A DNA stretch of 42,342 bases from Lentisphaerota bacterium. Its GTDB lineage: Bacteria; Verrucomicrobiota; Lentisphaeria; Victivallales; Victivallaceae. Position numbers and translations under genes: made by a program. Shown here in pieces: positions 2,167-19,533 of the stretch. Below the pieces are notes generated by a model, which had not been told where the DNA came from, did no database searches, and worked only from the letters and a program-made list of their open reading frames with translations. Numbering within the stretch: position 1 is the stretch's first letter; the number at the start of each line of letters is the position of its first letter. The stretch lies in NCBI GenBank assembly GCA_015061745.1, contig SUWB01000028.1, positions 1 to 42,342 on the forward strand. Reading direction: 5' to 3'.

Positions 2167-2176
2167 ATCCTTTCTC

Positions 2177-2196
2177 TTAAGTATCCGGGTACTTAA
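2177..2196. promoter_or_regulatory. 20-bp palindrome, candidate operator
   Basis: TTAAGTATCCGGGTACTTAA is palindromic except for one mismatched pair next to the central CCGG. It lies 11 bp upstream of the WbsX/GH99-like start codon, next to the Shine-Dalgarno. Its symmetry suits binding by a dimeric regulator. I did not find a second copy by eye in the window. An RNA hairpin is the alternative reading. Confidence 0.5.
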
Positions 2197-2268
2197 TTTA
2201 GCGGAACTGCTGACAATTTGCTTGGACGAAAAAAAGGAGAAAGAAAAATTTATTGAAAAATCGTAATA

Positions 2269-3135
2269 TTATCCAAATTTTCTTTTGTATTCACCGGGAT
2301 TGAAAGAATACTTCTTTTTGAATGTCCGGTAAAAATAACTCAGGTCGTTAAAGCCGCATTCAAGAGCAATAACAGAGATTTTCAGATCACTTTGAGTCAG
2401 CAGTGCAAGAGCGTGTTTCAAGCGGATCTCATTCAGGACCGTAATAATATTTTGTCCTGTGACTTTTTTGTAAAGAGAACAGAGATGATTTGGGGTCAAA
2501 TGGACTTTTTCAGCCAGGAGATCAATGAAAAGAGCGTGTTTATAGTTCTTTTCAAGAAAATAGGTCACATAATCCGCTACCTGTTCCTGAGAACTTTTAT
2601 GGGCTATTTTTTCACTGCCCCTCTGCATCAGGATCAGCAGTTCCAGAAGTTGAGCTTTCAAAAAGATCTGGTAATTTGTCCGTTGGGCCTTGTATTCCCG
2701 TTTCATCTCTCCGATCAGAGAAGTGATCTTGGCATTGGTGTCCTGAAGGTAGAAGGCAAAGGAACTTTTTTGCTTGAAAGAATCGGAAAATATGTCAAAG
2801 AAACGGAAGTTGTCCCGCAAGGATTCCAATTCGCTGCCCAAAAAAGAAAGATCAAAAAGGATATTGTCGATTTCAAGTTCTTCTGAAAGAATTTCAAAGG
2901 TCGTCACTGCTGCCGGATGTACAAGAATGACACTCCCCTCGTGAACCGGGAAAGGGGTATCTTCGACCAGTATCCGGCCGTGACCTTTCAACACCCGGGT
3001 GATTTTCCAGAATTCCCGGGTGAATCTCTGTTCTTCAAGGCAATCTTCAGGGGTATGGATCGCATAGGTGACGGCAAAATGGAACTCCTGAGGAAAAAAA
3101 TCTGCCGAGCGGAACGTTTTTAACTTCTGTATCAT
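2269..3135 (-). CDS. AraC-family transcriptional regulator
   Basis: This 288-residue protein has the standard AraC layout. Residues about 20-150 look like a cupin-type sensing domain (VKGHGRILVEDTPFPVHEGSV is the typical beta-turn region). The C-terminal 100 residues carry two helix-turn-helix motifs, including LAEKVHLTPNHLCSLYKKVTG and the signature segment VIALECGFNDLSYFYRTFKKKYSFNPGEYKR. It probably senses a sugar or glycan fragment and activates the WbsX/esterase unit immediately downstream on the same strand. That target is inferred from position. A promoter with TTGCAA-17-TATATT lies upstream (3178-3206). No terminator separates it from the genes below, so some co-transcription is possible. 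Confidence 0.93.
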   Translation of the reverse strand: MIQKLKTFRSADFFPQEFHFAVTYAIHTPEDCLEEQRFTREFWKITRVLKGHGRILVEDTPFPVHEGSVILVHPAAVTTFEILSEELEIDNILFDLSFLGSELESLRDNFRFFDIFSDSFKQKSSFAFYLQDTNAKITSLIGEMKREYKAQRTNYQIFLKAQLLELLILMQRGSEKIAHKSSQEQVADYVTYFLEKNYKHALFIDLLAEKVHLTPNHLCSLYKKVTGQNIITVLNEIRLKHALALLTQSDLKISVIALECGFNDLSYFYRTFKKKYSFNPGEYKRKFG

Positions 3136-4689: not shown

Positions 4690-5613
4690 ATGAACACTCC
4701 TTTTACTTTTCCTGTTGTAACAGCAGATGATATCAAACTTCTCTGGCAGACGGTTCATCCCGCTCCGGCCGGGGAAAAGGTGCTCGGGCTGCTGCAAAGC
4801 TGTGCCGATCATACCACGGCGGCTGAATTTGAGGCATTTGAAGCAGGCTCATTTGCCGCCGGGAAAAATGTATTGCTGCACTTCTATGACCGGGCTTTTG
4901 AAAAGGTGTTTTGTGAAGTTTTTTTTACAACCGTTGAACCGGGACAAACGGTGCTCTGGTATCTTTACAATTCAGGCTATATCATCAAAACGCCTGCCGC
5001 CTGTTTCGGAGTGGATCTCCACCACCGTATGGCGGCAAAACTTGCTCCGCTGCTGGACTTTGTCATTGCGACCCATAATCACGACGACCATTACAATCTT
5101 GCATTGCTGAATTCTCTGACTGAAAACGAAAAGGCCGTTGTCAGCAATTTTTTCCCCAATCCCTTTTATACCAAGGCTGTTGAATGTACTTACACGATGC
5201 CCGGCAATGTGACACTGCATTGTGGTGAAGCTGACCACAGTGCCCATTTGCGGAAATTTACGATGCCGGTGGAAATCATCTGCAAAACAGGAAATGCAGA
5301 GTGTGTTATTTACACCAGCGGCGATTGCTATTCTCACGAGTTTCTCGCTCCAAAGAGCAAGGCGGTCGATCTTTACATTATCCACCCCCGCTGCGGGATG
5401 AAGCCGGTTGAGGGCGTGGAAAAAGTCAATGCCCGTCTGACACTTGTTTCACATCTTCTTGAAATGAGCCACGAAATAGACCGTTACCGCTGGCCTTTGT
5501 CTTTCGGCAAAGAGGTGGTGGAAGATTTGAAAAAAATAAACCGGGAAGCCTGCTTCCCGGTCTGGGGACAGAAAATTGTGTGGAACTCCTCCGGAAAAGT
5601 GAGTTTCAGCTGA
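4690..5613 (+). CDS. metallo-beta-lactamase-fold hydrolase
   Basis: This 307-residue protein has the metal-binding HNHDDH motif at residues 129-134, preceded by a typical beta-strand and turn. A later histidine in GEADHSAH and an aspartate in SGDCYSHE are plausible further ligands. It resembles the MBL fold used by many hydrolases and oxidoreductases, with no family-specific signature I recognise. It follows the U32 gene by 6 nt without a clear Shine-Dalgarno, so coupled translation is likely. The last codons overlap a hairpin that reads as a terminator for the opposite strand (5531-5560), and its stop is only 3 nt from the end of the convergent gene. Cytoplasmic; substrate unknown. Confidence 0.8.
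   Translation: MNTPFTFPVVTADDIKLLWQTVHPAPAGEKVLGLLQSCADHTTAAEFEAFEAGSFAAGKNVLLHFYDRAFEKVFCEVFFTTVEPGQTVLWYLYNSGYIIKTPAACFGVDLHHRMAAKLAPLLDFVIATHNHDDHYNLALLNSLTENEKAVVSNFFPNPFYTKAVECTYTMPGNVTLHCGEADHSAHLRKFTMPVEIICKTGNAECVIYTSGDCYSHEFLAPKSKAVDLYIIHPRCGMKPVEGVEKVNARLTLVSHLLEMSHEIDRYRWPLSFGKEVVEDLKKINREACFPVWGQKIVWNSSGKVSFS
5531..5560 (-). terminator. intrinsic terminator of the minus-strand glycan locus
   Basis: Read on the minus strand, CCGGGAAG and CTTCCCGG form a perfect 8-bp stem with a 4-nt loop, followed by TTTATTTTTT. It lies 57 nt beyond the stop of the 656-aa gene and entirely inside the coding end of the convergent MBL-fold gene. Confidence 0.85.
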
Positions 5614-5616: not shown

Positions 5617-7587
5617 TTATTGGGCAGCCGGGATCTTCAGGAATCCTGTGTCCCACCCGCTGAGTCCGGGAAGTGTACAGCTGCACTCTTTTTCTTTGTG
5701 GTGCAGATGAACTTTGACCGGTTCTTCTGACGGAATGAGAAATTCCGCTTCAGTAATATTTGACGGGACTCCCCGCAAAAGAATTTCAAAAGGTTTTTGG
5801 TTTCCGATAGTGGGGTTCAGCACAGTGACACTTCTGAGTGTGCCATTTTCCGTTACCCGGGGAACAAAAACAAGCTGTACCGGATTTTTTGACCGTACAG
5901 GCAATTTTTCCTTTGCCACCCAGTCGGCTGCCAGATTGATCTGCCGTACCCGGTTTGAGGAAATATAATGGGGAGAAAGAGCGGCAATACCGAAAAGAGC
6001 TACCCGGCCCCCCGCAGGAGAGGTGAAAAGCAGTGAAGCGTTTTTCAGTTCTTTTCCTTTACTGTTCCGGTAAACGCCCAGAATACGGCTCTCAAGAGAG
6101 GAGGGGCACTCAAAGGCATAATTGGCCGCAGACAAAGATGAATACCGTCTGACATCCAAAGCGGCGTTGAGGGGATCATCTGTAAAATATTCATAACTTC
6201 CGGGCTCAGCGAAAGTAACTTGAATATCCCCCAGAAGATGATTGAGTCCTCTTTTTTGCAGAGCCATAGCCGCTTCGCCGCCGAGGATACACCCTTGTGC
6301 AAAGATTTTCTCTAATTCACCTTCTGAAAAAAGTTCCGCACCTTCCATACAAAGAAGCGTTCCCTGCCGGTTGTGTGCACACCCTGCAAGAGGTACTCCC
6401 AGCAGGGGGAGGCCAGTGTTCTCTATGTTGGGAGCAGCACCGACTTTGGCGGCAACAGCCATACCGGCAGGAAGTGTTCCTGCATTATGGCGGATATATT
6501 CTTTATAACAGGCACTTTCCGCTGCCAGAGGTTTCAGCAGCTCTCTGCCGTACCATTCAGGTGTTTCCAGATAAGGGTCCATAATGAAGTAGGACAGACT
6601 GTCGCAACCCATTGCCAGATAAAACAAAGATTCGATCCGGTGGCCCTGAGAAGTTTTACAGGTGAATGTCCGGGGACAGGATTCTATTTCAGGGGCAATC
6701 TGGCTCAAGGAGTCATATCCCTGCTGGTCAGCGATCTGCATAGAGATCAAAAGGCCTTTGTTCAACATCTGGTAAGGGTGGTGGTCACAATACGCTCCGC
6801 CGCCGGGACGGGAGCCCGGGCGTTTTCCGGAAAGCTCTTTCAAAGCGTCCAGTACCGGCAGACGCAGCAAGTTCTGACAATGCTGCAGTCCGAAACGGGT
6901 TTCAGGAGAGATTTTTCTGAAGTTTTCAATAATGATGTTGATGATTTGTTTCAAACTTTCTATGCTGAATTTTTCCCAGCGTTTGAAAAGAGCTGCATCC
7001 TTTTGGTATGCCGCAACAAGCTCTTCCCGGGTATAGAGTTTTCCTTCTTCTTTGGCAAAGAGAGCAAGACAATCCTTACAGTAACAGCCGCAAGGTTCCA
7101 TTGCCGGGTGGTGGTTGTGGAGCCGCAGATCATCGTCGATCCAGACTGAACCCGGGTGCCATTGAGCGTAAATTCGGGACATTTCTCCCATATATTCCAG
7201 AAACCCGGGCTGCCGGGGACAATTGACAAAGAGGCACTCCTCGCCGTTGACACCCACATAGCTGCCCCAGGTTTTTCCTTCAGCTCCGGCAGAGGCGATA
7301 ATCCGGTCTGAATGACCGATGGTCGTCTGGAACTGCAGACTGGGAATGATCCCGGCTTTACGCAGTACCGCTGCGTGTTCCCCCATAAGACGGGATTTTT
7401 CACGGTGACACTCAAGAAGGGGGAATCCTACTCCTGTTGAAAACCACACCTCATCACAGCAATCTTTATTTTCAAGAAGCTGAGGGAAAAGATTGTTCCA
7501 AACTTCCGGAGTTTCGTGTCCGGCCCTGAGCCGCATCATCATAAGAGGGCGGGTTGGATCAGGGGAAAAGTTATGTCCGTTTTGCAT
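5617..7587 (-). CDS. uncharacterised TIM-barrel/GATase-like protein (GH42-like architecture)
   Basis: I do not recognise a named family for this 656-residue protein. Residues about 10-370 read like a glycosidase-type barrel, with a SVWIDDDLRLHNHH segment and a cysteine cluster CGCYCKDC at 166-173 that resembles metal-binding cysteines of GH42-like enzymes. Around residues 390-450 the pattern GCILGGEAAMALQKRGL looks like the GATase-like domain that follows the barrel in GH42 proteins. The rest is probably beta-sandwich. There is no signal peptide. The start is 15 nt after the GH10 stop without a visible Shine-Dalgarno. It is the last gene of the minus-strand locus and is followed by a strong terminator. 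A role in breaking down the sugar product of the neighbours is likely but unproven. Confidence 0.75.
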   Translation of the reverse strand: MQNGHNFSPDPTRPLMMMRLRAGHETPEVWNNLFPQLLENKDCCDEVWFSTGVGFPLLECHREKSRLMGEHAAVLRKAGIIPSLQFQTTIGHSDRIIASAGAEGKTWGSYVGVNGEECLFVNCPRQPGFLEYMGEMSRIYAQWHPGSVWIDDDLRLHNHHPAMEPCGCYCKDCLALFAKEEGKLYTREELVAAYQKDAALFKRWEKFSIESLKQIINIIIENFRKISPETRFGLQHCQNLLRLPVLDALKELSGKRPGSRPGGGAYCDHHPYQMLNKGLLISMQIADQQGYDSLSQIAPEIESCPRTFTCKTSQGHRIESLFYLAMGCDSLSYFIMDPYLETPEWYGRELLKPLAAESACYKEYIRHNAGTLPAGMAVAAKVGAAPNIENTGLPLLGVPLAGCAHNRQGTLLCMEGAELFSEGELEKIFAQGCILGGEAAMALQKRGLNHLLGDIQVTFAEPGSYEYFTDDPLNAALDVRRYSSLSAANYAFECPSSLESRILGVYRNSKGKELKNASLLFTSPAGGRVALFGIAALSPHYISSNRVRQINLAADWVAKEKLPVRSKNPVQLVFVPRVTENGTLRSVTVLNPTIGNQKPFEILLRGVPSNITEAEFLIPSEEPVKVHLHHKEKECSCTLPGLSGWDTGFLKIPAAQ

Positions 7588-7602
7588 TTTTACACCATTG
7601 GG

Positions 7603-9093
7603 TTATTGTAAATGTGAAATCATACTTTCGCAGTTTCCCTGAGCATCGAGCCAGGTGAATTTATAATTGCCTCTGAAACCTCTGAAAGAAATTTTCCCTT
7701 CTTTGTCAGCTTGAGCAGTAAGACGGGTTTTCCACTCATTGTTGATAAGATCGTTCAAAGCAAAATAGGAAAGTTTGGGCTGCATATCTCTTGTGAAAAG
7801 TCCTGATACCGAAGGTTCTCCGGGAGCTCCGCAGTTGTCGACCACGTTCCACCAGGTAATGCCCATCATCGGTTTCAAACTGAACCAGAGACGGTAAAGA
7901 TTGCGGCTGATGACAGCTTGGATGATTTCACCTTTCCGGTTGCCTCCGGGGGCGGTAATGGTGATCTCTGACAAATGGATGGGGAGTCCTGCTTTACTGA
8001 GGAGTCCCATAGCTTCACGCACTTTATCCGGTGATTGGATAAGAGAGGTGCCGTCGGCAATATCCTGACACTGCTGAGGATTGAAAAGGTGCATTTGAGC
8101 TCCGGCAATGTCGATTTTACATCCCCGGCTGCGCAGATCGTTGATTTGTTCAAGGTAGGGCTGCTGCAGATAGTAGTCGTTGATGTTGAGCTTGACAGAA
8201 TCAGGGAGCACACTTTCTGCGATCTTGAAACTGCGATAGGTGTAATCTCCCGGCATCGGGCCGTAACAGCTTTTACAGATTTTTGAACCGGGAATCATAT
8301 TGCCGGAAGCGTAATCACAGGCACTTTCGTTGACCACATCCCAACTGTCTATCTTGTCTCCGTAACGGATGGCAAGTTCTATGATCCGTTTGGCGGTAAG
8401 GACGTTGAGCAGGGAGACAAATTCAGGAAGGGCTTTTTCAATTTCCTCAGGCGTCATATCTTTGAATGGTTCTGACATAGCTGCAGTGGGGAGCCTGCCA
8501 TTTTCCGGATTGCGTATCAGGTTTGCTTTCAGAAGGTAATCAAAGGGCAGTTTATTCATAAGCCAGTCCGGAAGGTGCCAGGTGTTGTTTCCCCAGACAA
8601 GGGGATGTCCGTGAAGCCGGATCTTTTTGGAAAGGCAAAAATCCACCACCGCATCGGTGGGAGGCCGCCGCCAGTGAGGTTCTTTCCACGGTTCGGCACA
8701 CTTGTTCCAGTATTCAGCGGTATCTTTGTATTCGGAACGGTAACGGGGGAATCCCTCCTGAAGTTCGTGAGTTTTCCAGTAAAAGGCAATGGTGGCAGAG
8801 TTGAAAAGAGTGCCGTAAAGCTCTTTATAACGGCGGTTTCTTTCATCACTGCCCAGCTGGTCAAAATTGAATATATGAGCTCCGAAAATAAAATCGTGGG
8901 AAATCTGTTCGACGTTGATTTCCCGGCCGGCGGCTGAAGGGGGAAGGAGGAATTCATTTTCCCCTTTGCGGTGAGCTTCTATGTCATCATCAATCTGTTT
9001 TTGGACTTTTTCGTTCCATAATTCCCGATAGACAGGTGAAAAGGCAGAGTCGATCTCACTTTGAGAAATATGAGGGAGCTTATATTCGTACAT
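7603..9093 (-). CDS. GH10 glycoside hydrolase (endo-xylanase-like), no signal peptide
   Basis: This 496-residue protein has the GH10 hallmarks. RLHGHPLVWGNNTWHLPDWL is the substrate-binding strand, WDVVNESACDY holds the acid/base glutamate (E256), and HLSEITIT holds the nucleophile (E376). An N-terminal segment of about 80 residues ending in HDFIFGAHIFNF precedes the barrel, as in many non-classical GH10 proteins. The N-terminus (MYEYKLPHIS) shows no signal peptide, so it should act on imported oligosaccharides. Xylan-type beta-1,4 linkages are the usual target, but divergence leaves the substrate open. The ATG follows AGGAG at good spacing. It lies downstream of the terminator at 9113-9150, so expression may depend on read-through or an unseen promoter. 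Confidence 0.88.
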   Translation of the reverse strand: MYEYKLPHISQSEIDSAFSPVYRELWNEKVQKQIDDDIEAHRKGENEFLLPPSAAGREINVEQISHDFIFGAHIFNFDQLGSDERNRRYKELYGTLFNSATIAFYWKTHELQEGFPRYRSEYKDTAEYWNKCAEPWKEPHWRRPPTDAVVDFCLSKKIRLHGHPLVWGNNTWHLPDWLMNKLPFDYLLKANLIRNPENGRLPTAAMSEPFKDMTPEEIEKALPEFVSLLNVLTAKRIIELAIRYGDKIDSWDVVNESACDYASGNMIPGSKICKSCYGPMPGDYTYRSFKIAESVLPDSVKLNINDYYLQQPYLEQINDLRSRGCKIDIAGAQMHLFNPQQCQDIADGTSLIQSPDKVREAMGLLSKAGLPIHLSEITITAPGGNRKGEIIQAVISRNLYRLWFSLKPMMGITWWNVVDNCGAPGEPSVSGLFTRDMQPKLSYFALNDLINNEWKTRLTAQADKEGKISFRGFRGNYKFTWLDAQGNCESMISHLQ

Positions 9094-9112
9094 TTTTTAT
9101 TCTCCTGAGATT

Positions 9113-9150
9113 AAAAAAGCTGTCTTCCGGTGTATTTCCAGAAAGACAGC
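9113..9150 (-). terminator. intrinsic terminator after the downstream DUF4838 gene
   Basis: On the minus strand, GCTGTCTT and AAGACAGC form an 8-bp stem with a 16-nt loop, followed by TTTTTTAA. It sits between the DUF4838 gene (stop at 9171) and the GH10 start (9093), so it would reduce transcription into the last two genes. Confidence 0.75.
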
Positions 9151-9170
9151 CATTGCAGAAACATAAAATG

Positions 9171-11636
9171 TTACTTGATAACGATTCTGCCGAAACGTTC
9201 AGGCCGGTGGAAGTCACCGAAAGTGGGACTCCAGCAGCTGTACTGGTCGGGAGCCACGGTCCGGCGGGCACGGCAGAAGTTCATTCCCCAGATATCGCCG
9301 AGGAAATCTTTGGACTTGGTCATTGAGCTCAAAGGCAGCTTGAGTTCTGCACTCCAGAAATCTTTTCCGCGGAAGGTTTTGACCACAGCTTTGGCATCCC
9401 AGGGCGTGTTGATTTTGCCTTCTTTCTTGAAACTTCTGATGGTTCCGAGAGAGTTGAACACCAGCTGATAGACCTGTTTTTCAGGAGTGGCAAAGAAAAG
9501 GTCGATGCAGTTTTCATCCCAGACAGGACTTGTGGGCAGACGGCCGGAGTCCATATTTTTATTCATCAGAGGTTCTTCGCAGTGGAATCCGATGTAAAGA
9601 TCACCTTTGTAACGGGTGAGATAAACATTGGCACCGACTTTGAAGGGATTGGCAGTGTCTTTGTCAAGTTCAATGCGCATCGGCTTGACGTTTTTCCAGA
9701 TGGCATCAGAAAGTTTGCCGTCCATAACGGGAGCGGCATTGATCCGGGTGGTACTTCCGTTTTTGCGGGCGTTGGCAGCCATCATAAAGGAAAAGACATT
9801 GGCGTCAAAGGGCAGACGGTAAGTCCGTTCAGTTCCCGCCGTGTTGGAGGGGGTGTTGGAGGGCAGGGGACCCATTTTCTTGAGGTAGGCATTACGGGCA
9901 TTGGTGAGCTTGAGGGCTTCAGCTGCCAGACGGGCATCGGGCTTTGCGGCAAGAACCAGCTTGGAAGCAATGGCATAGAGCTTGACAGTGATCTGGCAGT
10001 ATTCCAAATTGGTAATGGCGACCTGCAAACGGGCTTTCTGTCCTTTATCGGTGGTTTTTGCGGCGACGGCCTTCAGTTTGGGCAGCCACTTTTCTGCCAG
10101 TCCGGGATAGACTTTGGTCAGCACTCCGGGATAGCGGGGAACGTAACCCAGACTGCGGTTTTCTTTAAGACCGCCCTGGACATAGTCGCTCATACGTTTT
10201 TCGATGTCGTCAAAATAGCCTCTCACCACGGGAGCGGCGATCTTTCCGTAGCAGTCACGCAAAGTTTCAGCATAGAATTTCTCTTTGTTTTTGATGCTGC
10301 CCCAGGCATATTTCAGATAGAAATAGTTGTTCAAAGCGGCGGCACCGTAGCTGGTACCGTTATTCATATCGATACCGGTCACATCAGCGGCATAGAGGTT
10401 GTCGTAGAGCATTGAAATGTTTTTGAACTGACAGCAGGGCAGTTCAAGTCCGCCCATACCTTCAGGAGTGGCGTAGTAAAAGAGTTTGTTCAGCACCTTG
10501 CGCCAGGCTTTCAGGTTCTGCAAATGTGAGGCACGGCGTTTGGGGTTGTAGTAGCTCAGACCGGAGTCGTTGAGCACTTCTTCGATGACCACATTGGGAT
10601 GGACTTTGACCTTGCTGACACCTTCCACATAGAAAGAGTAGGCATACATTCCCATCGTCTGATTGGGGTAGTGTTTGGTGATGCGTTTGGCCATTTCGTT
10701 GGCATAGGTCATCATACGGGTGGTCATAATACGGGAACCATCAGGGCGGACACCGTCATCAAGAGCCTGACAGTTTTTACATTCGCACATCTGGCCGCCG
10801 TCATTGGGTGAAAGAGGCAGCATAGCGGGGCGTTTGCGCTTCTTGATATCAGCGATCATATTGGCGGCCATCTGGTCAAGAGCTTTGGGATTGGTGGTGC
10901 AGATCTGAAGTCCGTGACCGTGAGAGTAGGTGCCGAGACGGCGGCCGCCCACATAGGCAAAATATTCAGGATGTTTGTCAAAGTAATCTTCTTTTTTCAG
11001 ATAGTGAAGCCAGCTGTGCCAGGCACACCAGGAGTTGTTGTGTCCGACGCGGTTGCGGCGCATCCAGAGCTGATTTTCAAAGACCTGTTTTTTGGGCATT
11101 CCCTTGCGGGTCTGGTAGCCCATACGGCGCATCTCAAATCTGGGGGCATCAGCATAGTTCAGTTCAGGAACATCCCAATCGGCGCGTTTCGGAGGGACAT
11201 ATTCACCCATAGGACCGGGCATAAACCAGCGGATACCCAACTGTTTTTCAAGGAAGTCCGCCACGCCGAACCAGGTACCCACCCGGGCACCGTTGGCCCA
11301 GTGATTGTTGTACACATCACCGGGAGTGTCGTTACCGGAAATATGAATGTCCCGGCCCTGAGTTTTGACGACAAAACCTTCAGGTTTGTCGACTTTGATA
11401 TAGCCCAGCATAAAGGCGGGACGTTTGCCCCTCTGGGATTCTTTGACGATAGGAAGTTTTGCTCCTGTCGCTTTGAAAATGTAGGTACGCAAATCATTGG
11501 CTGCCGCCCGCATCACAGCTTGTTCAGCTTTGGGGGAAATGACGATGACGTACTCAGACTTGCCGTTTTTGACCACTGGCACAGCAGAGAGAACGGCTGC
11601 TGTAAACAGCATTGACAGAGATAACAGAATTCTCAT
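9171..11636 (-). CDS. exported DUF4838 protein with CBM9-like C-terminus (copy A)
   Basis: This 821-residue protein starts with a signal peptide (MRILLSLSMLFTAAVLSA, likely cut before VPVV). An N-terminal alpha-glucuronidase-like alpha/beta domain follows (about 25-140, with TGAKLPIV), then a large DUF4838 barrel region. PNDGG and the cluster CECKNC at 284-289 are the family hallmark. From about residue 640 the sequence (APVMDGKLSDAIW, then WDENCIDLFF) matches CBM9-like carbohydrate-binding domains. No enzymatic activity is firmly established for DUF4838 that I can cite; a glycosidase role on uronate-containing glycans is plausible. It is a close, same-length paralogue of the gene at 14355. 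The AAAGGAG ribosome-binding site is good, and it has its own promoter (11701-11729) and terminator. Confidence 0.88.
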   Translation of the reverse strand: MRILLSLSMLFTAAVLSAVPVVKNGKSEYVIVISPKAEQAVMRAAANDLRTYIFKATGAKLPIVKESQRGKRPAFMLGYIKVDKPEGFVVKTQGRDIHISGNDTPGDVYNNHWANGARVGTWFGVADFLEKQLGIRWFMPGPMGEYVPPKRADWDVPELNYADAPRFEMRRMGYQTRKGMPKKQVFENQLWMRRNRVGHNNSWCAWHSWLHYLKKEDYFDKHPEYFAYVGGRRLGTYSHGHGLQICTTNPKALDQMAANMIADIKKRKRPAMLPLSPNDGGQMCECKNCQALDDGVRPDGSRIMTTRMMTYANEMAKRITKHYPNQTMGMYAYSFYVEGVSKVKVHPNVVIEEVLNDSGLSYYNPKRRASHLQNLKAWRKVLNKLFYYATPEGMGGLELPCCQFKNISMLYDNLYAADVTGIDMNNGTSYGAAALNNYFYLKYAWGSIKNKEKFYAETLRDCYGKIAAPVVRGYFDDIEKRMSDYVQGGLKENRSLGYVPRYPGVLTKVYPGLAEKWLPKLKAVAAKTTDKGQKARLQVAITNLEYCQITVKLYAIASKLVLAAKPDARLAAEALKLTNARNAYLKKMGPLPSNTPSNTAGTERTYRLPFDANVFSFMMAANARKNGSTTRINAAPVMDGKLSDAIWKNVKPMRIELDKDTANPFKVGANVYLTRYKGDLYIGFHCEEPLMNKNMDSGRLPTSPVWDENCIDLFFATPEKQVYQLVFNSLGTIRSFKKEGKINTPWDAKAVVKTFRGKDFWSAELKLPLSSMTKSKDFLGDIWGMNFCRARRTVAPDQYSCWSPTFGDFHRPERFGRIVIK

Positions 11637-11700
11637 AATTTAATCAACTCCTTTATTTGTTTTTGTGAGAAAAATGTTAAAAAAAAGGCACTTCTCTAAT

Positions 11701-11729
11701 AAGATAACCTGTCATTGTATTTTTTTCAA
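11701..11729 (-). promoter_or_regulatory. sigma70-type promoter of DUF4838 copy A
   Basis: On the minus strand, TTGAAA is followed after 17 bp by TATCTT. It lies about 65 nt upstream of the ATG at 11636 and downstream of the terminator at 11752-11788, so copy A can be transcribed independently. Confidence 0.5.
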
Positions 11730-11751
11730 GAGTGTGTTCTTTAATTTCAGC

Positions 11752-11788
11752 AAAAAAAGAAGAACGGAACTTTATATGCTCCGTTCTT
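11752..11788 (-). terminator. intrinsic terminator after the middle DUF4838 gene
   Basis: On the minus strand, AGAACGGA and TCCGTTCT pair as an 8-bp stem around an 11-nt loop. CTTTTTTT then follows. It lies 34 nt past the stop of the gene at 11822. Confidence 0.8.
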
Positions 11789-11821
11789 TCAGCAGAAATG
11801 ACATCGACAGACAGGGGGAAA

Positions 11822-14209
11822 TTATTTTTTGTCTGTTGTTTTTTTCATCGTTACATAAACCGGTTTCCAGATGCCGCCTGCACCGAATTTATCCTGCACC
11901 CGGACGACGATATTCTGTTTTTTGCGATTCCAGTCAATGGTGTCGGTGATCTCAAGGGCAAAAGGCGTGTAGTAGTCAGGATCTTTCTGATAGATCCGTT
12001 TCCCGGCAAACTTGCCGTTGACATAGAGCCAGGCGGATTCATCCACTGCACCGAACACCAGATAGATCTTTTTTCCTTGCCACTTCGGATCAATGGCAAT
12101 GTTCTGGGAGTACCAGCCGATGCCGTTGTAATTTTCCATTGTCTTTTTGAACGCAGGATCTTTGTAATTCTGCTTTTCCCAGGTGGTATCGGTACGGGCG
12201 GCGATCCATTTGTTTCTGGCCGCGGTGTGTTTGGGGGAGAACCAGGCTCCTTTTACACCTTCATCCCGGGGATCAATGGCAAAACGCCAGTAGACGAGTG
12301 TTGTGTCAAAGTTTTCATAGTCAGCCAGCATAATCGCAGATCGGATACCGGCAGCATCGCCGTTGGCGATTTCACAGTGGAAAAGTTTTTCCCAGTTGAT
12401 ATTGAGTTTGTTTTTGTTGGCCCGGCGGAATTTCAACAGTTCCACAGAGGCTTTGATTTTTTCCTTGCCGGTACGGGACATTGCACGGTAGGTCAATCGG
12501 GAGTGTTTATTGGTCAGGAGCAGGGTTTCCAAACGCTTCTTTTGATTGGGCGTCAGTTTTTTAGCGAGACCTGCCTGAAGGTATTTTTCAACGGTGTCGA
12601 AGTCGCTTTCTTTGTAAAACTCGTGGATATTCAGCATAATGACTTTGCGGAAATTACCGTATCTTGTTCTGTCATTGATGCTCTTGCGGTTTTTCCAGAT
12701 ACCGTTTTCCCAGATATTCACTCTGAAGTGGTCAAAGTATTTTCTTACTTCCGGAGCCGCAGCACCGTAGGCAGAACAATATTCATTCATCCAGTATTCG
12801 AAATCTTTTGTGGTGTCCACATTGCCCCGGGCGATCAGATAATCAGCAATACCGGAAATATCCCAGAAGCCGTGGAGGGAATCGTAACGGGTCCCGAAAG
12901 CTCCGTATTTCACCCCCAGTTTGAAGGCATCAAAAAGAGTCTTTTCAAAGCCCATAGGCAGAGACGTGTTGATGTGCAGATCATTGGGACGCAGCAGAAA
13001 GTGTCTTGCTCCAGCCTTGTGCCACTCCTGATAGGTCTTTTCGGCAGTGTCCAGCTGAAGCATAGAAGGCACATAGCTCAAATGGGTGTCGTGATCCAGC
13101 TTTTCACGCAAGGGAGGATCCCGGTAGACGGAATAGGCATATTGGCAGACAATTGCTGTGGGATCGATTTTTTTGATCTCTTTTCTGATTTGTTTACCGA
13201 AATAAACATAACGGTCAGAGAGATCCTTGTTCCAGGGTCTTCCGTCCCGGGGGGGCATATCCAGTTTGCGGCAGTTGGCACATTCACAGAAGCCGCCGCC
13301 GTCATTTTCGCAAATGTTGATCATATTGGTACGTGCCGGATTTTTTGCCCAATTGGCGACGATCTGTTTCCAGACTGCCGGATTGGAAACACACAATTTG
13401 ACCCATTTGGGACGGGTGGCGTGCATAGGGCCTCTTTTGCCGTTGACCAGAGCAAAGTATTCGGGGTTGGTTTTTCCGTAACGAGCCCACCAGTCGGTGA
13501 ATGCGTGTCCGAAAGCATAATCTTTGCTCCGGCCGATACGCTGCTGTTTCAGCCAGAGGAACGTTTCATATTTTTTGTTGTGATACTCTTTGGGATCGGT
13601 AATGACAAAATCCGGCGGGGGAAGGGCATTGCCGGGGAATTTTTTATCCTTGAACCGTTTGAGCGCGGCGGCATTGGTCCGGTCGGGCCAGAGATAACGG
13701 TAGGTCAGTTGGGGAACCCAGGAGTTTCTGCCTTCTTTAAGTTCCAGTTTTTTCCGGGGCTCATAAGAAATACCGGCAGGACCGGGGGCGAGAAAGAGGA
13801 CTCCCAGCTGTTTTTCCAGAAAATCATAGACTGCTGTCAAATCGCCGCTTTTGGCTTTCATATCGAGAATCTTGTGAAGCTGGATCCAGTTTTTACCGGT
13901 ATAAGTGGAATCTCCGTAGAGCCGTGCGGCCTCTTTGGTCACTTCCCAACGTGCTTCTTCCGGCTGAAGTTTGACTCCGGCGGGTGTACCGAAAATAAAG
14001 GGATACTTCCCTTTTTTAAGTTCGTTTACAATGGGAATCTTTTTTCCGGTAATCAAATGCAGATACTTCTGCAATTCTTTTCCTGCAAATTGGATGACGC
14101 CGTCCGCATCTTTTTTGACGACGATAACGGCTTTGCCCGGATCGACTGTTACGGCAGCAAGGTTTATGACGAACGCTGCTAAAATTGTAAGTGTTCCGTA
14201 AAATTTCAT
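11822..14209 (-). CDS. exported DUF4838 protein, divergent copy (B), galactose-binding-like C-terminus
   Basis: This 795-residue protein has a signal peptide (MKFYGTLTILAAFVINLAA, cut before VTVD) and the alpha-glucuronidase-like N-domain (TGKKIPIV). The DUF4838 cluster CECANC is at 308-313 behind ENDGGG. Its C-terminus differs from the flanking copies. Instead of a CBM9-like domain it has about 100 residues (WYSQNIAIDP, VDESAWLYVNGKFAG, then QNIVVRVQDKFGAGGIW) that match the galactose-binding beta-sandwich seen at the start of GH2 enzymes. So the array pairs one fold with two types of binding domain. The start follows CCAGGAAGG a few bases upstream of ATATG. A terminator follows at 11752-11788. 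Biochemical function unknown. Confidence 0.85.
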   Translation of the reverse strand: MKFYGTLTILAAFVINLAAVTVDPGKAVIVVKKDADGVIQFAGKELQKYLHLITGKKIPIVNELKKGKYPFIFGTPAGVKLQPEEARWEVTKEAARLYGDSTYTGKNWIQLHKILDMKAKSGDLTAVYDFLEKQLGVLFLAPGPAGISYEPRKKLELKEGRNSWVPQLTYRYLWPDRTNAAALKRFKDKKFPGNALPPPDFVITDPKEYHNKKYETFLWLKQQRIGRSKDYAFGHAFTDWWARYGKTNPEYFALVNGKRGPMHATRPKWVKLCVSNPAVWKQIVANWAKNPARTNMINICENDGGGFCECANCRKLDMPPRDGRPWNKDLSDRYVYFGKQIRKEIKKIDPTAIVCQYAYSVYRDPPLREKLDHDTHLSYVPSMLQLDTAEKTYQEWHKAGARHFLLRPNDLHINTSLPMGFEKTLFDAFKLGVKYGAFGTRYDSLHGFWDISGIADYLIARGNVDTTKDFEYWMNEYCSAYGAAAPEVRKYFDHFRVNIWENGIWKNRKSINDRTRYGNFRKVIMLNIHEFYKESDFDTVEKYLQAGLAKKLTPNQKKRLETLLLTNKHSRLTYRAMSRTGKEKIKASVELLKFRRANKNKLNINWEKLFHCEIANGDAAGIRSAIMLADYENFDTTLVYWRFAIDPRDEGVKGAWFSPKHTAARNKWIAARTDTTWEKQNYKDPAFKKTMENYNGIGWYSQNIAIDPKWQGKKIYLVFGAVDESAWLYVNGKFAGKRIYQKDPDYYTPFALEITDTIDWNRKKQNIVVRVQDKFGAGGIWKPVYVTMKKTTDKK

Positions 14210-14302
14210 ATGATTTCCTTCCTGGCTTGTGGATTAGGAGCTCTCTTTATAAAAACTTTTGCAATGGGACGGTGAATTGTTTTGGGCTCTGATACTGTCA
14301 AT

Positions 14303-14345
14303 ACAAATAAAACAGAGCTTCTGCCGTACGATGACAGAAGCTCTG
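14303..14345 (-). terminator. intrinsic terminator after DUF4838 copy C
   Basis: On the minus strand, CAGAGCTTCTG and CAGAAGCTCTG form a perfect 11-bp stem with an 11-nt loop, followed by TTTTATTTGTAT. The hairpin lies 10-42 nt beyond the stop at 14355. Confidence 0.85.
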
Positions 14346-14354
14346 CTGAAATGT

Positions 14355-16820
14355 TTATTTGATGATAAGTTTTCCGAACCGCTGGATATTGTGGAATCCG
14401 CCGAAAGTGGGACTCCAGCAAACTCCGGAAGCAGGTTTGACCACCCGGCGCACACGGCAGATGTTGAATCCCCAGATGTCGCCCCGGATATCTTTTGACT
14501 TTGTCAGGCTTTTCAAGGGAATCATCACTTCAGCATCCCAGGCTGTTTTTGTTTTGTGAACAGCAATTTTTGCATTGTGTTCCCAGGGAGTACCTTTGCC
14601 GTTTTTGTAGAAAAATGCCTGAGGCGTTCCCAGTGTGTTGATCATCAGCTGGTGATAGGATGAACCGGCATCGGCAGCGTGGAAAAAGAGATCCACATAA
14701 TTTTCCAGCCATACGCTGCTGCCGGGCTTGACGGCGGAGTCTTTGACCTGATCCATAAGGGGTTCAGGATTGTGGACGGCAAGGTAAAGGGCATCTTTGG
14801 TCACGGCGATCTTTAAGGTGGAGCCGACAGGCTGTTTGACTCCGTAAGCATCAACTTCCAGAGTCATAACGGGCAGATTTTTCCAGAAATCTTCGTTAAA
14901 TTTGCCGTCAAGAACAGGCACGGAATTGCGCCGTTCGACTTTGGTGCTTTTACGGGCGTTGGAGCTGAGAAGGAAACTGAAAATGTCCCGCTTGAGAGGC
15001 AGAGCGAAATTCTTTTCAGTATTGGCAAAGTTGACCGGTCCGGCAGAGGGCAGTTTGTAGTTTTTGGCAACCTGTTTGTCACGGAGCCGGGCCAGTTTGT
15101 CGCCTTTGGCCGCCAGAGCAACACTGGCATTTTTAGAACGGGTCACTTTGATGGCAGTGTCATAAAGGTCACAGGTGGTCTTGGTGTATTCCAAATTGTC
15201 AAGGATCAGCTGCAAGCGGGCACGCTGACCTTTGTCAGTGACTTTCTTTGCAACGGCACTCAGGGGCTTGTACCACTTTTCGTAAAGTCCGGGATAGACT
15301 TTGGTCAGGACTCCGGGATAACGTTTGGCGTACCCCATTTCCCGGTTGAAATCCACGGCTCCCAGAGCAAATTTTTCCATACGTTTTTCCACATCTTCAA
15401 AGTAGGCTTTGACGCACTTGAACGCCGCAGGACCGTAACATTGGGCAATGGCTTCATTGTACAGTTTTTCACGGTCTTTCACAGGGGCCCAGGCAAATTT
15501 CATATAGAAGTAGTGGTTCAGACCGGCAGAAGCAAAGTCTGAAGTGTTGTTGATGCAGACACCGCCCACATCGGCAGCAGCAAGATTGTCATAAATATGG
15601 CAGATGTTGCGGAACTGGTAGACAGGCAGTCCCAAATTGCCCATACCTTCGGTCCAGGTGTCAAAGGTGAGAAGTTTCAGATTCTTGCGCCAGGCTTTCA
15701 AATTGGCAAGGTGGCGTTTGCGGACTTCGGGGCTGTAATAGGTCAATCCCGCATCGTTGAGAACTTCCATAACATAGACATTGGGATGAAGTTTGACTTT
15801 TCCTACGCCGTCAGCATAGACAGAATAGGCCAGAAGTCCCAAAGTCTGTTTAGGATTGATCTTGGTGATCCTTTTGGCCATTTCGTTGGCATAAGTGGCA
15901 ATACGGTCGGTCATAATGCGGCTGCCGTCAGGACGGACACCGTTGTCAAGAGCCTGACAGTTTTTACATTCGCAGAAAAATCCGCCGTCGTTGGGGGTAA
16001 TGGACATCATAACGATGTGTTTGTAGTTGGCGTGTGCTTTAAAGAGATTTTTGGCAAATTCGTCAAGTGCCCCGGGATTGGTGGTGCAGATCTGCATACC
16101 GTGGCCCAGATGATTGTGGTTGTAGCGTCTGCCGCCTACATAGGCAAACCATTCAGGGTGATCTTTGAAGTAATCTTTGCCCTGGAGATGACGGACCCAG
16201 GAGTGCCAGGAACACCAGTGCATCGTCTGGCCTTCACGGTTGCGGCGACGCCACTTCCAGCACTCCATCCGGTCGGCTTTGGAACGTTTGCCGTGACCGA
16301 CCTGTTTGCTCCAGCGGAATGCCATCCGGGGGGCATCTTTGAAGTTCAGATTGTCAGGGATGATAAGATTTTTGCTCTTGGGGACATATTCCCCCAGGGG
16401 ACCGGGCATAAACCAACGGATCCCGAGATATTTTTCGAGAAAATCCACCGCTCCGTACCAGGTGCCGACCCGGGAACCGTGGGACCAGTGATTGTTGTAA
16501 GGATCTCCGGGAGTGTCATTCCCGGAAATATAGATGTCTTTGCCTTTGACCTGGATCTCAAACCCTTCTGAGACAGTCACTTTGTTATACCCCAGACGGA
16601 AAGCCGGACGTTTGCCGACATTGGCTTCTTTGACCTTGGGCAATTTGGCTCCGGTGGCTTTATGGATGTATTCCTGCAAATCAGCGGCTGCGGCGTGAGC
16701 GGCTTTTTCAGCTTTGGGGGAAACGACGATGACATAGTCGGATTTCCCGTCTTTGACCACCGTCAAAGCCGGAAGTGCCGCTGCGGCCAGCAGCGAACAG
16801 AAAAGGAACAGTTTTTTCAT
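14355..16820 (-). CDS. exported DUF4838 protein with CBM9-like C-terminus (copy C)
   Basis: This 821-residue protein is the close paralogue of the gene at 9171. It shares IRWFMPGPLGEYVP, LTKVYPGL and the C-terminal CWSPTFGGFHNIQRFG block. It begins with a signal peptide (MKKLFLFCSLLAAAALPA, then LTVV) and an alpha-glucuronidase-like N-domain (about 25-140). The DUF4838 region carries the cysteine cluster CECKNC at 283-288, and a CBM9-like domain starts near 640 (VPVLDGKFNEDFW). An AAGGAG site precedes the ATG. The gene begins 31 nt after the ceramidase-like gene, with no terminator between them. It is therefore probably the third gene of the operon that starts with the aminotransferase, and that unit would end at 14303-14345. 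Confidence 0.88.
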   Translation of the reverse strand: MKKLFLFCSLLAAAALPALTVVKDGKSDYVIVVSPKAEKAAHAAAADLQEYIHKATGAKLPKVKEANVGKRPAFRLGYNKVTVSEGFEIQVKGKDIYISGNDTPGDPYNNHWSHGSRVGTWYGAVDFLEKYLGIRWFMPGPLGEYVPKSKNLIIPDNLNFKDAPRMAFRWSKQVGHGKRSKADRMECWKWRRRNREGQTMHWCSWHSWVRHLQGKDYFKDHPEWFAYVGGRRYNHNHLGHGMQICTTNPGALDEFAKNLFKAHANYKHIVMMSITPNDGGFFCECKNCQALDNGVRPDGSRIMTDRIATYANEMAKRITKINPKQTLGLLAYSVYADGVGKVKLHPNVYVMEVLNDAGLTYYSPEVRKRHLANLKAWRKNLKLLTFDTWTEGMGNLGLPVYQFRNICHIYDNLAAADVGGVCINNTSDFASAGLNHYFYMKFAWAPVKDREKLYNEAIAQCYGPAAFKCVKAYFEDVEKRMEKFALGAVDFNREMGYAKRYPGVLTKVYPGLYEKWYKPLSAVAKKVTDKGQRARLQLILDNLEYTKTTCDLYDTAIKVTRSKNASVALAAKGDKLARLRDKQVAKNYKLPSAGPVNFANTEKNFALPLKRDIFSFLLSSNARKSTKVERRNSVPVLDGKFNEDFWKNLPVMTLEVDAYGVKQPVGSTLKIAVTKDALYLAVHNPEPLMDQVKDSAVKPGSSVWLENYVDLFFHAADAGSSYHQLMINTLGTPQAFFYKNGKGTPWEHNAKIAVHKTKTAWDAEVMIPLKSLTKSKDIRGDIWGFNICRVRRVVKPASGVCWSPTFGGFHNIQRFGKLIIK

Positions 16821-16851
16821 AATTTTCTCCTTGTGTTGAGTATTTTATGTG

Positions 16852-18168
16852 TTAAATCAAAAGACTTTCTTCAATAGCAGTTTTTAGAGCCGTGTCACCG
16901 GTTCCCGGAGCGAAATGGGTAAAGCCGAATGAACATTCATATCCCTGTCTGGCAAAGTCTTCAGCCAGGGGCAGATAGCCGTTGTAGCCGCCGGTGACGG
17001 AAATCAATACCGCTTCGGGGTTGGCTTCTTTCAGTTTCAAAGAAATAATACTGAGGACTTCAAAGGGCATTCCGGTCAGAACTTTGTCCCCGAGACGCAG
17101 GAATCGCAGGGGCATTGTAAACTTTCGGCCCGGATAAGTTTGGGCGATGAATCTTGAGGCAATGCAGTGTTCCAAATCAGCGGATTGGAGTTTTTCAGCT
17201 TCCTGATAATTTTTTTCTGCGTTTTCATAATCCAGCTCAGCAGGCAGTTCCACCGGAAACTCCACTGTCTTCATAGAAACAGATTGTTTTTTGTCCCGCT
17301 TGAAAAGCAGCACATTCTGCTGCAAGGTCAGGGCAAGGATATCCCCGAGGTTCTTTCTGGAATTGATTTTTTGTGCAAATTCCTGAGAGTCAGGTCCCCT
17401 GAGTCTTGGAACGGAGTCTCCTGCCGCCCCCAGCATAAAAAAGCCGGGACAGCCGAAAAGTTCTTCCACTTTTGTTTTGAAGTACCAGGGGTAATCTCCG
17501 GAAATACAATAAGCATCAACTCCCCCTGTGACCGGATGACATCCTACTGCTGCAAGTACAGCCTTGGGCCCCCGGTCGGTCATAAAACGCCACGCAGTCA
17601 GAGTGGTGTCACACTTGGAAAAGATAAAATCTTCAGGCTTGTCCGGGTAAATATAATTCTGCTCAACAAGGCCGTCACTCTTTTTGAGCGTACGGCGGTT
17701 GAACATAATGCCCGGAACTTCCACTTCCAGATGTTCAATGAGGCATTCCTCCATAGAATTCAGGGCACAGCTGACGGCATCCAGAAGTTTATTGTGCCAC
17801 AAGGTACGGTATGCGGTGTCTTCCGGATGATCTCCATAGGCCAGAGTCCCGTCGTGATGAGGAATGAAATAAGCCTCAAAACCGGGAGCAAAATGGGTAT
17901 GGGAGCTGCTGATCCATATCCGGTCAGCAGGAATGTGGTACTCACGGTCAAGCAGATCGTAAATCAAAGCACACTCTGTAACATTGATCCCCGCAATATC
18001 GGCTGTGATAATCAAATGGACATCACAACTGTCATTTTCAGAAATCGCCATAACGCCCAGTTCAATGGGTTCTTCAACACCGCGAGAGAGCTCCTTGCGG
18101 AATCCGTATCCCCGGAGAAAGGAGTCTCTTTCCGGCAGGGTAAAGCGTTTGGCTGTTCCAAGTTTCAT
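16852..18168 (-). CDS. neutral/alkaline ceramidase-like hydrolase
   Basis: The protein (438 residues from this start) resembles the N-terminal catalytic domain of neutral/alkaline non-lysosomal ceramidases. It carries RIWISSSHTHFAPG, the zinc-site motif of that family, then VGCHPVTGG with a second likely histidine ligand, then LGAAGDSVP near the family's GD-P region. Ceramidases cleave an N-acyl amide bond. In carbohydrate loci of this kind the family is common, and its true substrate is unknown and probably not ceramide. No signal peptide is seen. I chose ATG 18168 because AAGGAACGG precedes it. A TTG start at 18204 would add 12 residues but has no ribosome-binding site and lies against a hairpin. 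Confidence 0.78.
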   Translation of the reverse strand: MKLGTAKRFTLPERDSFLRGYGFRKELSRGVEEPIELGVMAISENDSCDVHLIITADIAGINVTECALIYDLLDREYHIPADRIWISSSHTHFAPGFEAYFIPHHDGTLAYGDHPEDTAYRTLWHNKLLDAVSCALNSMEECLIEHLEVEVPGIMFNRRTLKKSDGLVEQNYIYPDKPEDFIFSKCDTTLTAWRFMTDRGPKAVLAAVGCHPVTGGVDAYCISGDYPWYFKTKVEELFGCPGFFMLGAAGDSVPRLRGPDSQEFAQKINSRKNLGDILALTLQQNVLLFKRDKKQSVSMKTVEFPVELPAELDYENAEKNYQEAEKLQSADLEHCIASRFIAQTYPGRKFTMPLRFLRLGDKVLTGMPFEVLSIISLKLKEANPEAVLISVTGGYNGYLPLAEDFARQGYECSFGFTHFAPGTGDTALKTAIEESLLI

Positions 18169-18205
18169 AAAAATACCGTTCCTTGAATATCTGCTTTTTG
18201 ACAAT

Positions 18206-18237
18206 CGGGGAGCAGTTTTGAAAAAAGTTGCTCCCCG
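18206..18237 (-). other. intergenic hairpin without U-tract
   Basis: CGGGGAGCA and TGCTCCCCG form a perfect 9-bp stem with a 14-nt loop between the aminotransferase stop and the ceramidase-like start. On the minus strand it is followed by ATTGTCAAAAAG, so it is not a normal intrinsic terminator. It could be a pause, mRNA-processing or stabilising element within the operon. Confidence 0.6.
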
Positions 18238-18243
18238 TCCGGA

Positions 18244-19533
18244 TCAAATCAATTCGTCAATGTTTTCGATAACCTTGCGGAATGCTGCCGCATGGGCTTC
18301 AATTGCAGGTTTGTCAAAGTGTTTGAACCAGGGCAAATGGAAACAGCGTGCAGGCAGGGATTCGGACATAGGCAGAGAACCTTTGCCCTGACGCACATCA
18401 CGCTGTCCGAATGCAATGACCGTGGGTTTGCCCTGATTGAAATAATCAAGGTCGTGGAAAAGAGGACTCAGGTGCAGCGGAGGATTGGCTCCTGAGAAAG
18501 TGAAAACACCTTCAGCAGCCACGGCTGCACAGAATTTTTCAGCAGAAATCTTTTGGGCCAATTCTTCTGAAACAAGACCTTTGGCCGCATACCAGCCGCC
18601 TTTTGTCGTGTTGGTTCCCTTGGCAGGACGGATGGTTTTGAGGCCGGGGAGTTCGTCGATGAGGTCGCAAAAGTAATTCATAGCCTTGTCGATTTCAGCG
18701 ACACGCTCGTCATAGTATTTGAGCTGAACACGTCCCATAGCGGCACAGGTCTGGTTGATCCGGTATTTCACGCCGCCGATGGGGATTCCGGCATATTTTT
18801 GCAAAGCAGGATCGGTGATGAAAGATTCAGCTTTGTTGAATTTACTGGCAACACCGGTGCGTTCATAGAACCCGTAGGCTACACAGCGTTCAAAAAGTTC
18901 CCGGTTGTCGGTACAGATCATACCGCCTTCACCGATGGCAAGGGATTTTCCGGACATCAAACTGGCACAGGAAATATCACCCAGAGCACCGCACATTTTT
19001 CCCTGATAGAGAGCTCCCTGAGCGTGGGAGTTGTCCTCAATGATCAGCAGATGATGTTTGTCGGCAATGGCCCGGATCTGCTGCCACTTGGCGGGCTGGG
19101 CTCCGTAGTTGACCACGATAATGGCCTTGGTACGGGGACCGATACGGTGTTCGATGTCATCAGGATCAATGTTGAGTTCTTCATCAATGTCGGCAAAATT
19201 GACTGTGGCACCGAGTTTGACAATGGCTGTGCAGCTGGCCCAGTAGGTCATAGAAGGACAGATGACTTCGTCACCGGCACCGATACCGCAGGCCCAGAAG
19301 GCCGCTGTGAGAGCAGCAGTGCCGTTGGCAGTGCTCAAAGCGTATTTGGTGCCGTTCCAGGCAGCGTATTCCTGTTCAAAAATCTTGGAAATTTCATTAC
19401 CAGACATCGTACCTGCTTCAAGGACTTCAGTTACAGCCTGAATATCCTCTGAAGTGACGATAGGCCAGTGAAAAAGAGACTCGAAGTCCTCTTGAATGAC
19501 TTTAGTTCCGCCGTTGACAGCCAGTTTGCTCAT
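18244..19533 (-). CDS. DegT/DnrJ/EryC1/StrS-family PLP aminotransferase
   Basis: This 429-residue protein is a typical fold-type I sugar aminotransferase. It opens with a LAVNGGTKVI start, ANGTAALTAAFWACGIGAGDEVICPSMTYWA forms the cofactor pocket, and IIEDNSHAQGA carries the PLP-binding aspartate. The lysine in SGKSLAIGEGG (K196) is the probable Schiff-base residue. The family transfers amino groups to keto-sugars or keto-cyclitols, usually for antibiotic or O-antigen sugars. Next to glycan-degrading genes it could run in the catabolic direction on an amino sugar or aminocyclitol; that is inference. AAAGGATC lies just upstream of the ATG. It is the first gene of the minus-strand locus, behind a promoter at 19615-19643 and a structured leader. 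Confidence 0.93.
   Translation of the reverse strand: MSKLAVNGGTKVIQEDFESLFHWPIVTSEDIQAVTEVLEAGTMSGNEISKIFEQEYAAWNGTKYALSTANGTAALTAAFWACGIGAGDEVICPSMTYWASCTAIVKLGATVNFADIDEELNIDPDDIEHRIGPRTKAIIVVNYGAQPAKWQQIRAIADKHHLLIIEDNSHAQGALYQGKMCGALGDISCASLMSGKSLAIGEGGMICTDNRELFERCVAYGFYERTGVASKFNKAESFITDPALQKYAGIPIGGVKYRINQTCAAMGRVQLKYYDERVAEIDKAMNYFCDLIDELPGLKTIRPAKGTNTTKGGWYAAKGLVSEELAQKISAEKFCAAVAAEGVFTFSGANPPLHLSPLFHDLDYFNQGKPTVIAFGQRDVRQGKGSLPMSESLPARCFHLPWFKHFDKPAIEAHAAAFRKVIENIDELI

Follow-up and report, generated by a model that had tools for sequence, protein, structure and literature searches.

The described systems closest to the genes treated here are the polysaccharide utilisation loci of Bacteroidota, in which exported and cytoplasmic glycan enzymes adjoin, and several single enzyme families, among them the neutral ceramidases, the GH42-type enzymes and the GH115/GH67 alpha-glucuronidases. 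A passage on the GH115 enzyme BoAgu115A gives Arg-328 and Asp-332 as catalytically important (PMC3879575), and another states that the GH163 enzyme of B. thetaiotaomicron cleaves GlcNAc-beta-1,2-Man (PMC10154615), GlcNAc being N-acetylglucosamine. The domain name DUF4838 occurs in one paper in a literature search over 5.39 million papers, and one DUF4838 protein carries a GH163 label in a published table (PMC9870897). Here we describe a group of genes that includes three DUF4838 genes, located at 5617-19533 of a 42,342-nt stretch, analysed whole and called the window, which is contig 22 (SUWB01000028.1) of a Lentisphaerota genome (GCA_015061745.1) of 3.1 Mb in 75 contigs, 91.6% complete. Seven minus-strand open reading frames (ORFs) fill this segment, and a first-pass annotation had taken them for one glycan-processing locus with a joint pathway. 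We consider them probably to be side-by-side modules and not one pathway, because hairpins with U runs stand after all three DUF4838 genes and after the 656-aa gene but were not found after the DegT, ceramidase-like and GH10 genes, because a site next to ProRS keeps the ceramidase-like gene in four relatives while the GH10 and 656-aa genes lie elsewhere, and because GH10 sits with MR/MLE and RraA genes in relatives.

Hairpins and gene order around the seven genes

The genes and hairpins, in the direction of transcription, are as follows.

18244..19533, minus strand: DegT/DnrJ/EryC1/StrS aminotransferase, 429 aa; PF01041, 250 bits; no signal peptide by eye
16852..18168, minus strand: neutral-ceramidase-like zinc-hydrolase-type protein, 438 aa; profile against solved neutral ceramidases; ATG start at 18168
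14355..16820, minus strand: DUF4838 protein, predicted exported, 821 aa; PF16126, 134 bits; weak CBM9_1 match, under cut-off
14311..14347, minus strand: terminator-like hairpin after the first DUF4838 gene, 15-bp stem; folding z -8.2
11822..14209, minus strand: DUF4838 protein, predicted exported, 795 aa, with C-terminal GH2-type sugar-binding domain; PF16126, 90 bits; Glyco_hydro_2_N, 49 bits
11760..11788, minus strand: terminator-like hairpin after the second DUF4838 gene; folding z -2.7
9171..11636, minus strand: DUF4838 protein, predicted exported, 821 aa, with GH115/GH67-like fold and CBM9-like C-terminal domain; PF16126, 151 bits
9119..9151, minus strand: hairpin followed by a U run, about 19 nt 5' of the GH10 start; folding z -4.3
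7603..9093, minus strand: GH10-family enzyme, 496 aa; PF00331, 98 bits; no signal peptide by eye
5617..7587, minus strand: 656-aa clan GH-A-like protein with barrel, GATase-like and beta domains; structure model and alignment
5538..5563, minus strand: terminator-like hairpin after the last (656-aa) gene, 11-bp stem; folding z -2.9

The inventory given by the first-pass annotation stands. All seven ORFs are in place on the minus strand according to the ORF list and translations; DegT, GH10 and the three DUF4838 proteins are clear above their Pfam cut-offs; the ceramidase-like label, although under the Pfam cut-off, is borne out by profile, and that of a TIM-barrel/GATase-like protein by a structure model. 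Signal peptides, judged by eye on the translations, are limited to the three DUF4838 proteins, so that the GH10, ceramidase-like and 656-aa proteins are without one, as had been said. Likewise, no SusC, SusD or sulfatase was found among the 30 window ORFs, a subset of the total, that were scanned with Pfam. The glycan-related character of the enzymes is supported.

The intergenic gaps from DegT to the 656-aa gene measure 75, 31, 145, 185, 77 and 15 nt when the 18168 start of the ceramidase-like gene is used. A scan for terminators found minus-strand stems at 14347-14311, 11788-11760 and 5563-5538. It is weak alone, since it counted 36 terminator-like sites over the two strands of the region and 21.2 in shuffled sequence; the gap before GH10 (9094-9170) folds with z -4.3 and carries a U run. 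A stricter search, over the 110 nt 3' of each gene, gave a stem and T run for the 656-aa gene and all three DUF4838 genes, but not for the DegT, ceramidase-like or GH10 genes. The same combination follows 7 of 28 other DUF4838 genes of the genome that were examined, and was met in 16 of 560 shuffles. Judged from these signals, the likely transcription units are DegT-ceramidase-DUF4838, DUF4838, DUF4838 and GH10-656. The stretch between DegT and the ceramidase-like gene (18169-18243) holds a GC-rich hairpin (z -2.3) with no U run after its stem.

Four genomes of the same genus (G100, G103, G107 and G114) carry a ceramidase homologue (64-68% identity) adjoining ProRS (86-96%), as in the window, with NifU and RF2 next in three of the four, the G103 contig ending in ProRS. 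An AP_endonuc_2 protein stands between ceramidase homologue and ProRS in all four; in the window it is absent and the DUF4838, GH10 and 656-aa genes follow at this site. DegT is present at the ProRS site in G100 only (77% identity to the window DegT). The best ceramidase match lies on a different contig from the best GH10 and 656-aa matches in each of the four genomes, and tblastn found no GH10, 656-aa or DUF4838 homologue in about 9 kb either side of the G107 (L173) ceramidase gene. One conserved seven-gene locus was not found in 137 genomes of the order (own included), searched with the 656-aa, ceramidase-like, DegT and GH10 proteins, four of the seven, and judged among the matches listed, nor at 80 named ceramidase loci.

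Wide flanks were read for 24 of 29 non-own GH10 homologue loci, several of whose contigs end early. Both MR/MLE and RraA genes lie near GH10 in 21 of the 24 loci, an SDR gene in 20 and an IclR gene in 16; since the cluster query proteins came from L151-L153, the independent MR/MLE and RraA count is 18 of 21. In G103, G107 and G114 the cluster also includes the 656-aa gene. A near-full-length 656-aa homologue (at least 50%) occurs in seven genomes, all of which have a GH10 of at least 55%, against 29 of 136 overall (p=1.1e-5, a value that ignores relatedness), and in three of the seven both are on one contig. For the relatives' RraA-like protein the own genome has one 50% homologue, on another contig.

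The joint pathway and single locus of the first-pass annotation are therefore not supported: hairpins separate groups of genes, GH10 belongs to another conserved cluster, DUF4838 has about 50 dispersed paralogues, and the genes are scattered in relatives, a finding that the first-pass annotation had itself named as evidence against its reading.

Several observations weigh against the modular reading. All genes are on a single strand with gaps of 15-185 nt. Between the hairpin 5' of GH10 and the start codon there are about 19 nt, which is not enough for a promoter, and DUF4838-GH10-656 may therefore be a single read-through unit; read-through from the DUF4838 gene into GH10 is likely. The ceramidase contigs of G103 and G114 measure 6.6 and 8.5 kb, on which linkage could be hidden, the best test being G107. 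Of the five same-genus members of the window's ceramidase clade, only two have an adjoining DegT. On the GH10 side, the cluster is missing at L200, L205 and L208, where one flank covers about 9 kb and the other little, so that at least in part these are real exceptions; the 656-aa contigs of G037, G100, G105 and G127 (3.9-10 kb) carry no GH10, that of G105 having the MBL-fold gene that comes after 656 in the cluster; and no GH10 flanks any of nine weaker 656-aa homologues (43-49%, L162-L170). Uncounted are a 656-aa fragment in G116 (259 residues, 53%; best GH10 49%) and a GH10 fragment in G119 (98 residues, 69%).

The DegT and ceramidase-like pair

The ceramidase-like protein scores 18.9 bits with PF04734, under the gathering cut-off of 32.1, but a profile built from the window sequence and 24 relatives (25 in all) retrieves solved neutral ceramidases with E=1.8e-26 and 1.5e-25, the N-terminal catalytic region being common to both. 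Its start is most likely ATG 18168, and not TTG 18204, because close homologues begin at that Met. The invariant columns H90/H92, H211, E370 and Y398 align with zinc-ligand positions of PDB 2zws and 4wgk; the HTH motif, second His, Glu and Tyr are thus kept, positions which we take to be the zinc ligands of neutral ceramidase. The window protein differs in having GDSVPR, with Val replacing the Ser of the GDVSPN-type motif, in its length of about 438 aa against 646-688 aa for the solved chains, the C-terminal domain being missing, and in its want of a signal peptide. Ceramide is an unlikely substrate because that Ser and the C-terminal domain, both presumably functional in neutral ceramidase, are missing; the protein may instead N-deacylate some smaller molecule.

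Its closest named relatives come from Lentisphaeria metagenome-assembled genomes (L211-L213) of roe deer caecum, yak caecum and sheep colon, and the window itself may stem from a similar animal gut. At L171-L173 the ProRS is 94-96% identical to the window's and the ceramidase-like neighbour just 65-68%, for which reason this protein would seem to evolve fast or to have been exchanged. The ceramidase-like gene of L172 and L173 is overlapped at its end by one for a sialidase-like protein with BNR repeats, and in L176 and L177 (same family) the gene is in tandem duplicate near O-antigen-ligase-type and 2-hydroxyacid dehydrogenase genes.

The DegT protein passes the PF01041 gathering cut-off of 19.8 bits, and its top solved relatives are DegT-family aminotransferases, including 2-deoxy-scyllo-inosose aminotransferases. 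Named ceramidase loci were taken as the best 80 of 343, of which 79 were used, one having no usable match. DegT homologues around them number 21 within 1 kb, 4 at 1-2.5, 1 at 2.5-5, 3 at 5-7.5 and 0 at 7.5-10 kb, in flanks totalling 146, 196, 277, 220 and 195 kb respectively, which is a density of 0.144/kb within 1 kb of the ceramidase-like gene and at most 0.02/kb beyond. DegT lies no more than 1.5 kb away in 21 of the 79 loci, and the pairing is seen in Planctomycetota, Lentisphaerota, Verrucomicrobiota, Armatimonadota and Bacillota. The window GH10, 656-aa and DUF4838 proteins have no tblastn match (E<=1e-6) within 10 kb of these 79 loci, as far as the flanks extend.

A tree of 85 ceramidase-like proteins was built by a quick method and bears a long-branch warning; L263 and L270 (too short) and L211-L213 (same contigs as L171-L173) were left out. 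DegT is within 1.5 kb in 23 rows and absent in 41, with 21 set aside for short flanks (23 of 64 informative). With the 21 uninformative rows excluded, the DegT label switches about 13 times, and at least 12 changes are forced by starred branches, counting DegT rows against all other rows. These results support a genuine recurring pair of DegT and a ceramidase-like amidase across phyla. No paper on such a gene pair was found among the matches listed (titles and abstract starts) in a literature search. The nitrogen-bearing substrate that had been suggested fits the two genes of this recurring pair.

A biosynthetic role of the pair, in which DegT would supply the amino sugar of some surface glycan, to be remodelled by the ceramidase-like enzyme, the remaining genes being catabolic, is unlikely. 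Most solved DegT matches are biosynthetic, judging by their names; however, no glycosyltransferase or nucleotide-sugar gene directly adjoins the pair in the window, and DegT homologues (at least 53%) elsewhere in the order are flanked by Gfo/Idh/MocA or Amidohydro_2 genes in 10 of the 14 loci read (L179-L190, L209 and L210, three of which supplied the query proteins). None of these 14 loci shows a ceramidase homologue in the flanks searched.

The DUF4838, GH10 and 656-aa proteins

The three DUF4838 proteins lie well above the PF16126 cut-off of 26.6 bits and far under the best score in the order (354 bits). The own genome has 54 PF16126 matches in about 50 frames, as dispersed paralogues, and because of this number the presence of DUF4838 at the locus says little; with about 50 genes in 3.1 Mb, DUF4838 probably matters to the feeding of these bacteria. 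First-look candidates number 92, 85 and 49 in the same-genus genomes G100, G103 and G092, and 0 or 1, without any match, in G088, G116, G117, G118 and G120, at most 14 candidates being scored per genome. The proteins of 14355-16820 and 9171-11636 are 52-53% identical; the middle one aligns with each of them in part of its length, at about 26-29% identity. The 9171-11636 protein is closer (70% identity) to L001, a paralogue encoded on a different contig, than to its neighbours, and local triplication was rejected as the main source of the three genes.

By structure model and profile, DUF4838 resembles the GH115/GH67 alpha-glucuronidases, whose shared multi-domain fold the model shows, with a CBM9-like domain at its end. 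The top five GH115 chains reach whole-chain Foldseek TM-scores of just 0.41-0.45, and 0 of 26 DUF4838 members has a GH115 Pfam match at E<=0.05. The hhalign alignment, gappy in this region, does not retain the Arg and Asp of BoAgu115A, the mapping of residue numbers to motifs being our own, and DUF4838 has an additional NDGG-x2-C-x-C-x2-C motif. DUF4838 was not accepted as a member of family GH115, in spite of the common fold. L329, a high-scoring DUF4838 protein of a relative, also has weak PDB matches, to GH115 (best E=0.02). The hhalign probability is 17 over 68 columns for GH67, six of whose seven proteins are near-copies, and 8 for the 656-aa family, and we claim common ancestry with neither.

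GH10 (PF00331, 97.9 bits against a cut-off of 22.1) has the beta-xylanase 8b73 as its closest solved sequence relative (E=1.1e-21). Its DVVNE aligns with DVINE of 8b73, and HLSE was read by eye as the second Glu site; we take these for the places of the two catalytic Glu of GH10. The 656-aa protein has no Pfam match (E<=0.1), GH42 included, no NCBIfam match (E<=0.01), and no sequence-profile relative among PDB chains beyond one chance-level match. Its AlphaFold2 model (pLDDT 90.9) matches GH42-type enzymes over almost its full length, with barrel, GATase-like and beta domains in common, and also resembles GH164 enzymes, the alpha-L-fucosidase 6tvk (GH151, we presume) and the PgaB hydrolase domain (presumably GH153). 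In a 27-sequence alignment D151-D153, E300 and C168-x-C170 are invariant and C173 is nearly so, which places an Asp cluster at the strand 4 end, where Glu is usual in GH-A enzymes. This family (DDD...CYCKDC) and DUF4838 (NDGGxxCECxxC) have in common that Asp residues in the barrel are followed by C-x-C-x2-C.

Among readings that name a substrate, a glucuronoxylan module is possible and rather doubtful. The DUF4838 proteins, two with a CBM9-like domain, would be uronosidases, GH10 and the 656-aa protein would finish xylo-oligosaccharides, and the DegT-ceramidase pair would be an unrelated neighbour, an arrangement compatible with modules. The GH115/GH67-like fold and sequence profile favour it, as do the resemblance of the C-terminal domain to CBM9 of xylanases, the MR/MLE and RraA neighbours of GH10 in relatives, a BD-FAE-type esterase at 269-1024, and the fact that the own genome has no GH67 or GH115 Pfam match, so that DUF4838 could take that role. 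However, the middle DUF4838 protein carries a GH2-type domain and not CBM9, the fold says nothing on substrate, and a search of the own genome (91.6% complete), made without a positive control, gave no match to the relatives' MR/MLE protein.

Still one co-regulated operon, in which DUF4838 would act on a GlcNAc-bearing glycan as a GH163-like endo-beta-GlcNAcase, GH10 and the 656-aa protein would trim, the ceramidase-like enzyme deacylate and DegT deaminate, appears improbable. An Asn-Asp pair at the DUF4838 motif, with D279 invariant in 26 members, fits it, and so do the single strand and the PgaB hydrolase domain, which stands first in the VIA-align list for the 656-aa barrel, level with GH42; the substrate of PgaB is a glucosamine polymer. 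Hairpins between the genes, the separate contigs of GH10 and 656-aa genes in four relatives, the enzymes suggestive of sugar acids that group with GH10, and the absence of a nagA/nagB-type family among the scanned ORFs speak against it. The GH163 cleavage and the GH163 label cited at the outset (PMC10154615; PMC9870897) lend it some support, the likeness between that labelled protein and the window's DUF4838 proteins (90-151 bits) being one of Pfam domain name.

Beside the seven genes, the minus strand has another small carbohydrate-related cluster at 269-3135, adjoining the locus, with genes for a BD-FAE-type esterase, a WbsX-type protein and an AraC regulator. A 307-aa protein without Pfam or NCBIfam match, at 4690-5613 on the plus strand, lies next to a U32 peptidase. 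No Rfam family at gathering score and no tRNA was found in the window.

Proposed roles and comparison with known systems

Under the modular reading, a cytoplasmic module would consist of the DegT and ceramidase-like proteins, and the first DUF4838 gene perhaps belongs to it. The substrate of the zinc hydrolase would most probably be an N-acylated amino sugar or aminocyclitol, which it would deacylate; DegT would then exchange the freed amino group for a keto group, leading to sugar oxidation. The DUF4838 proteins, as separate exported glycoside-hydrolase-like proteins of predicted fold, would bind and trim polysaccharide outside the cell. GH10 and the 656-aa protein of GH42/PgaB type would break down imported oligosaccharides in the cytoplasm, a location suggested by their lack of signal peptides. 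The IclR regulator, MR/MLE dehydratase, RraA-like aldolase and SDR dehydrogenase of the relatives' cluster suggest the use of sugar acids for this last module. All three would have come together beside ProRS in this genome, and the arrangement looks like gene turnover at a fixed housekeeping site of a glycan-enzyme-rich genome.

Tentatively, and with considerable doubt, DegT and the short ceramidase-like hydrolase might constitute an undescribed multi-phylum route in which N-acylated amino sugars or aminocyclitols lose first their acyl and then their amino group. With it, DUF4838 might be a large group of glycoside hydrolases with GH115/GH67-like fold, for the most part uncharacterised, that has been amplified to about 50 genes here. 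The modular reading keeps a seven-gene "pathway" out of annotation in favour of testable pieces: the pair can be tested with two purified proteins, and DUF4838 gains a fold-based hypothesis. Compared with the polysaccharide utilisation loci of Bacteroidota, the window has no SusC/SusD among the ORFs scanned and its gene set is not kept as a unit, but like them it sets exported and cytoplasmic glycan enzymes side by side.

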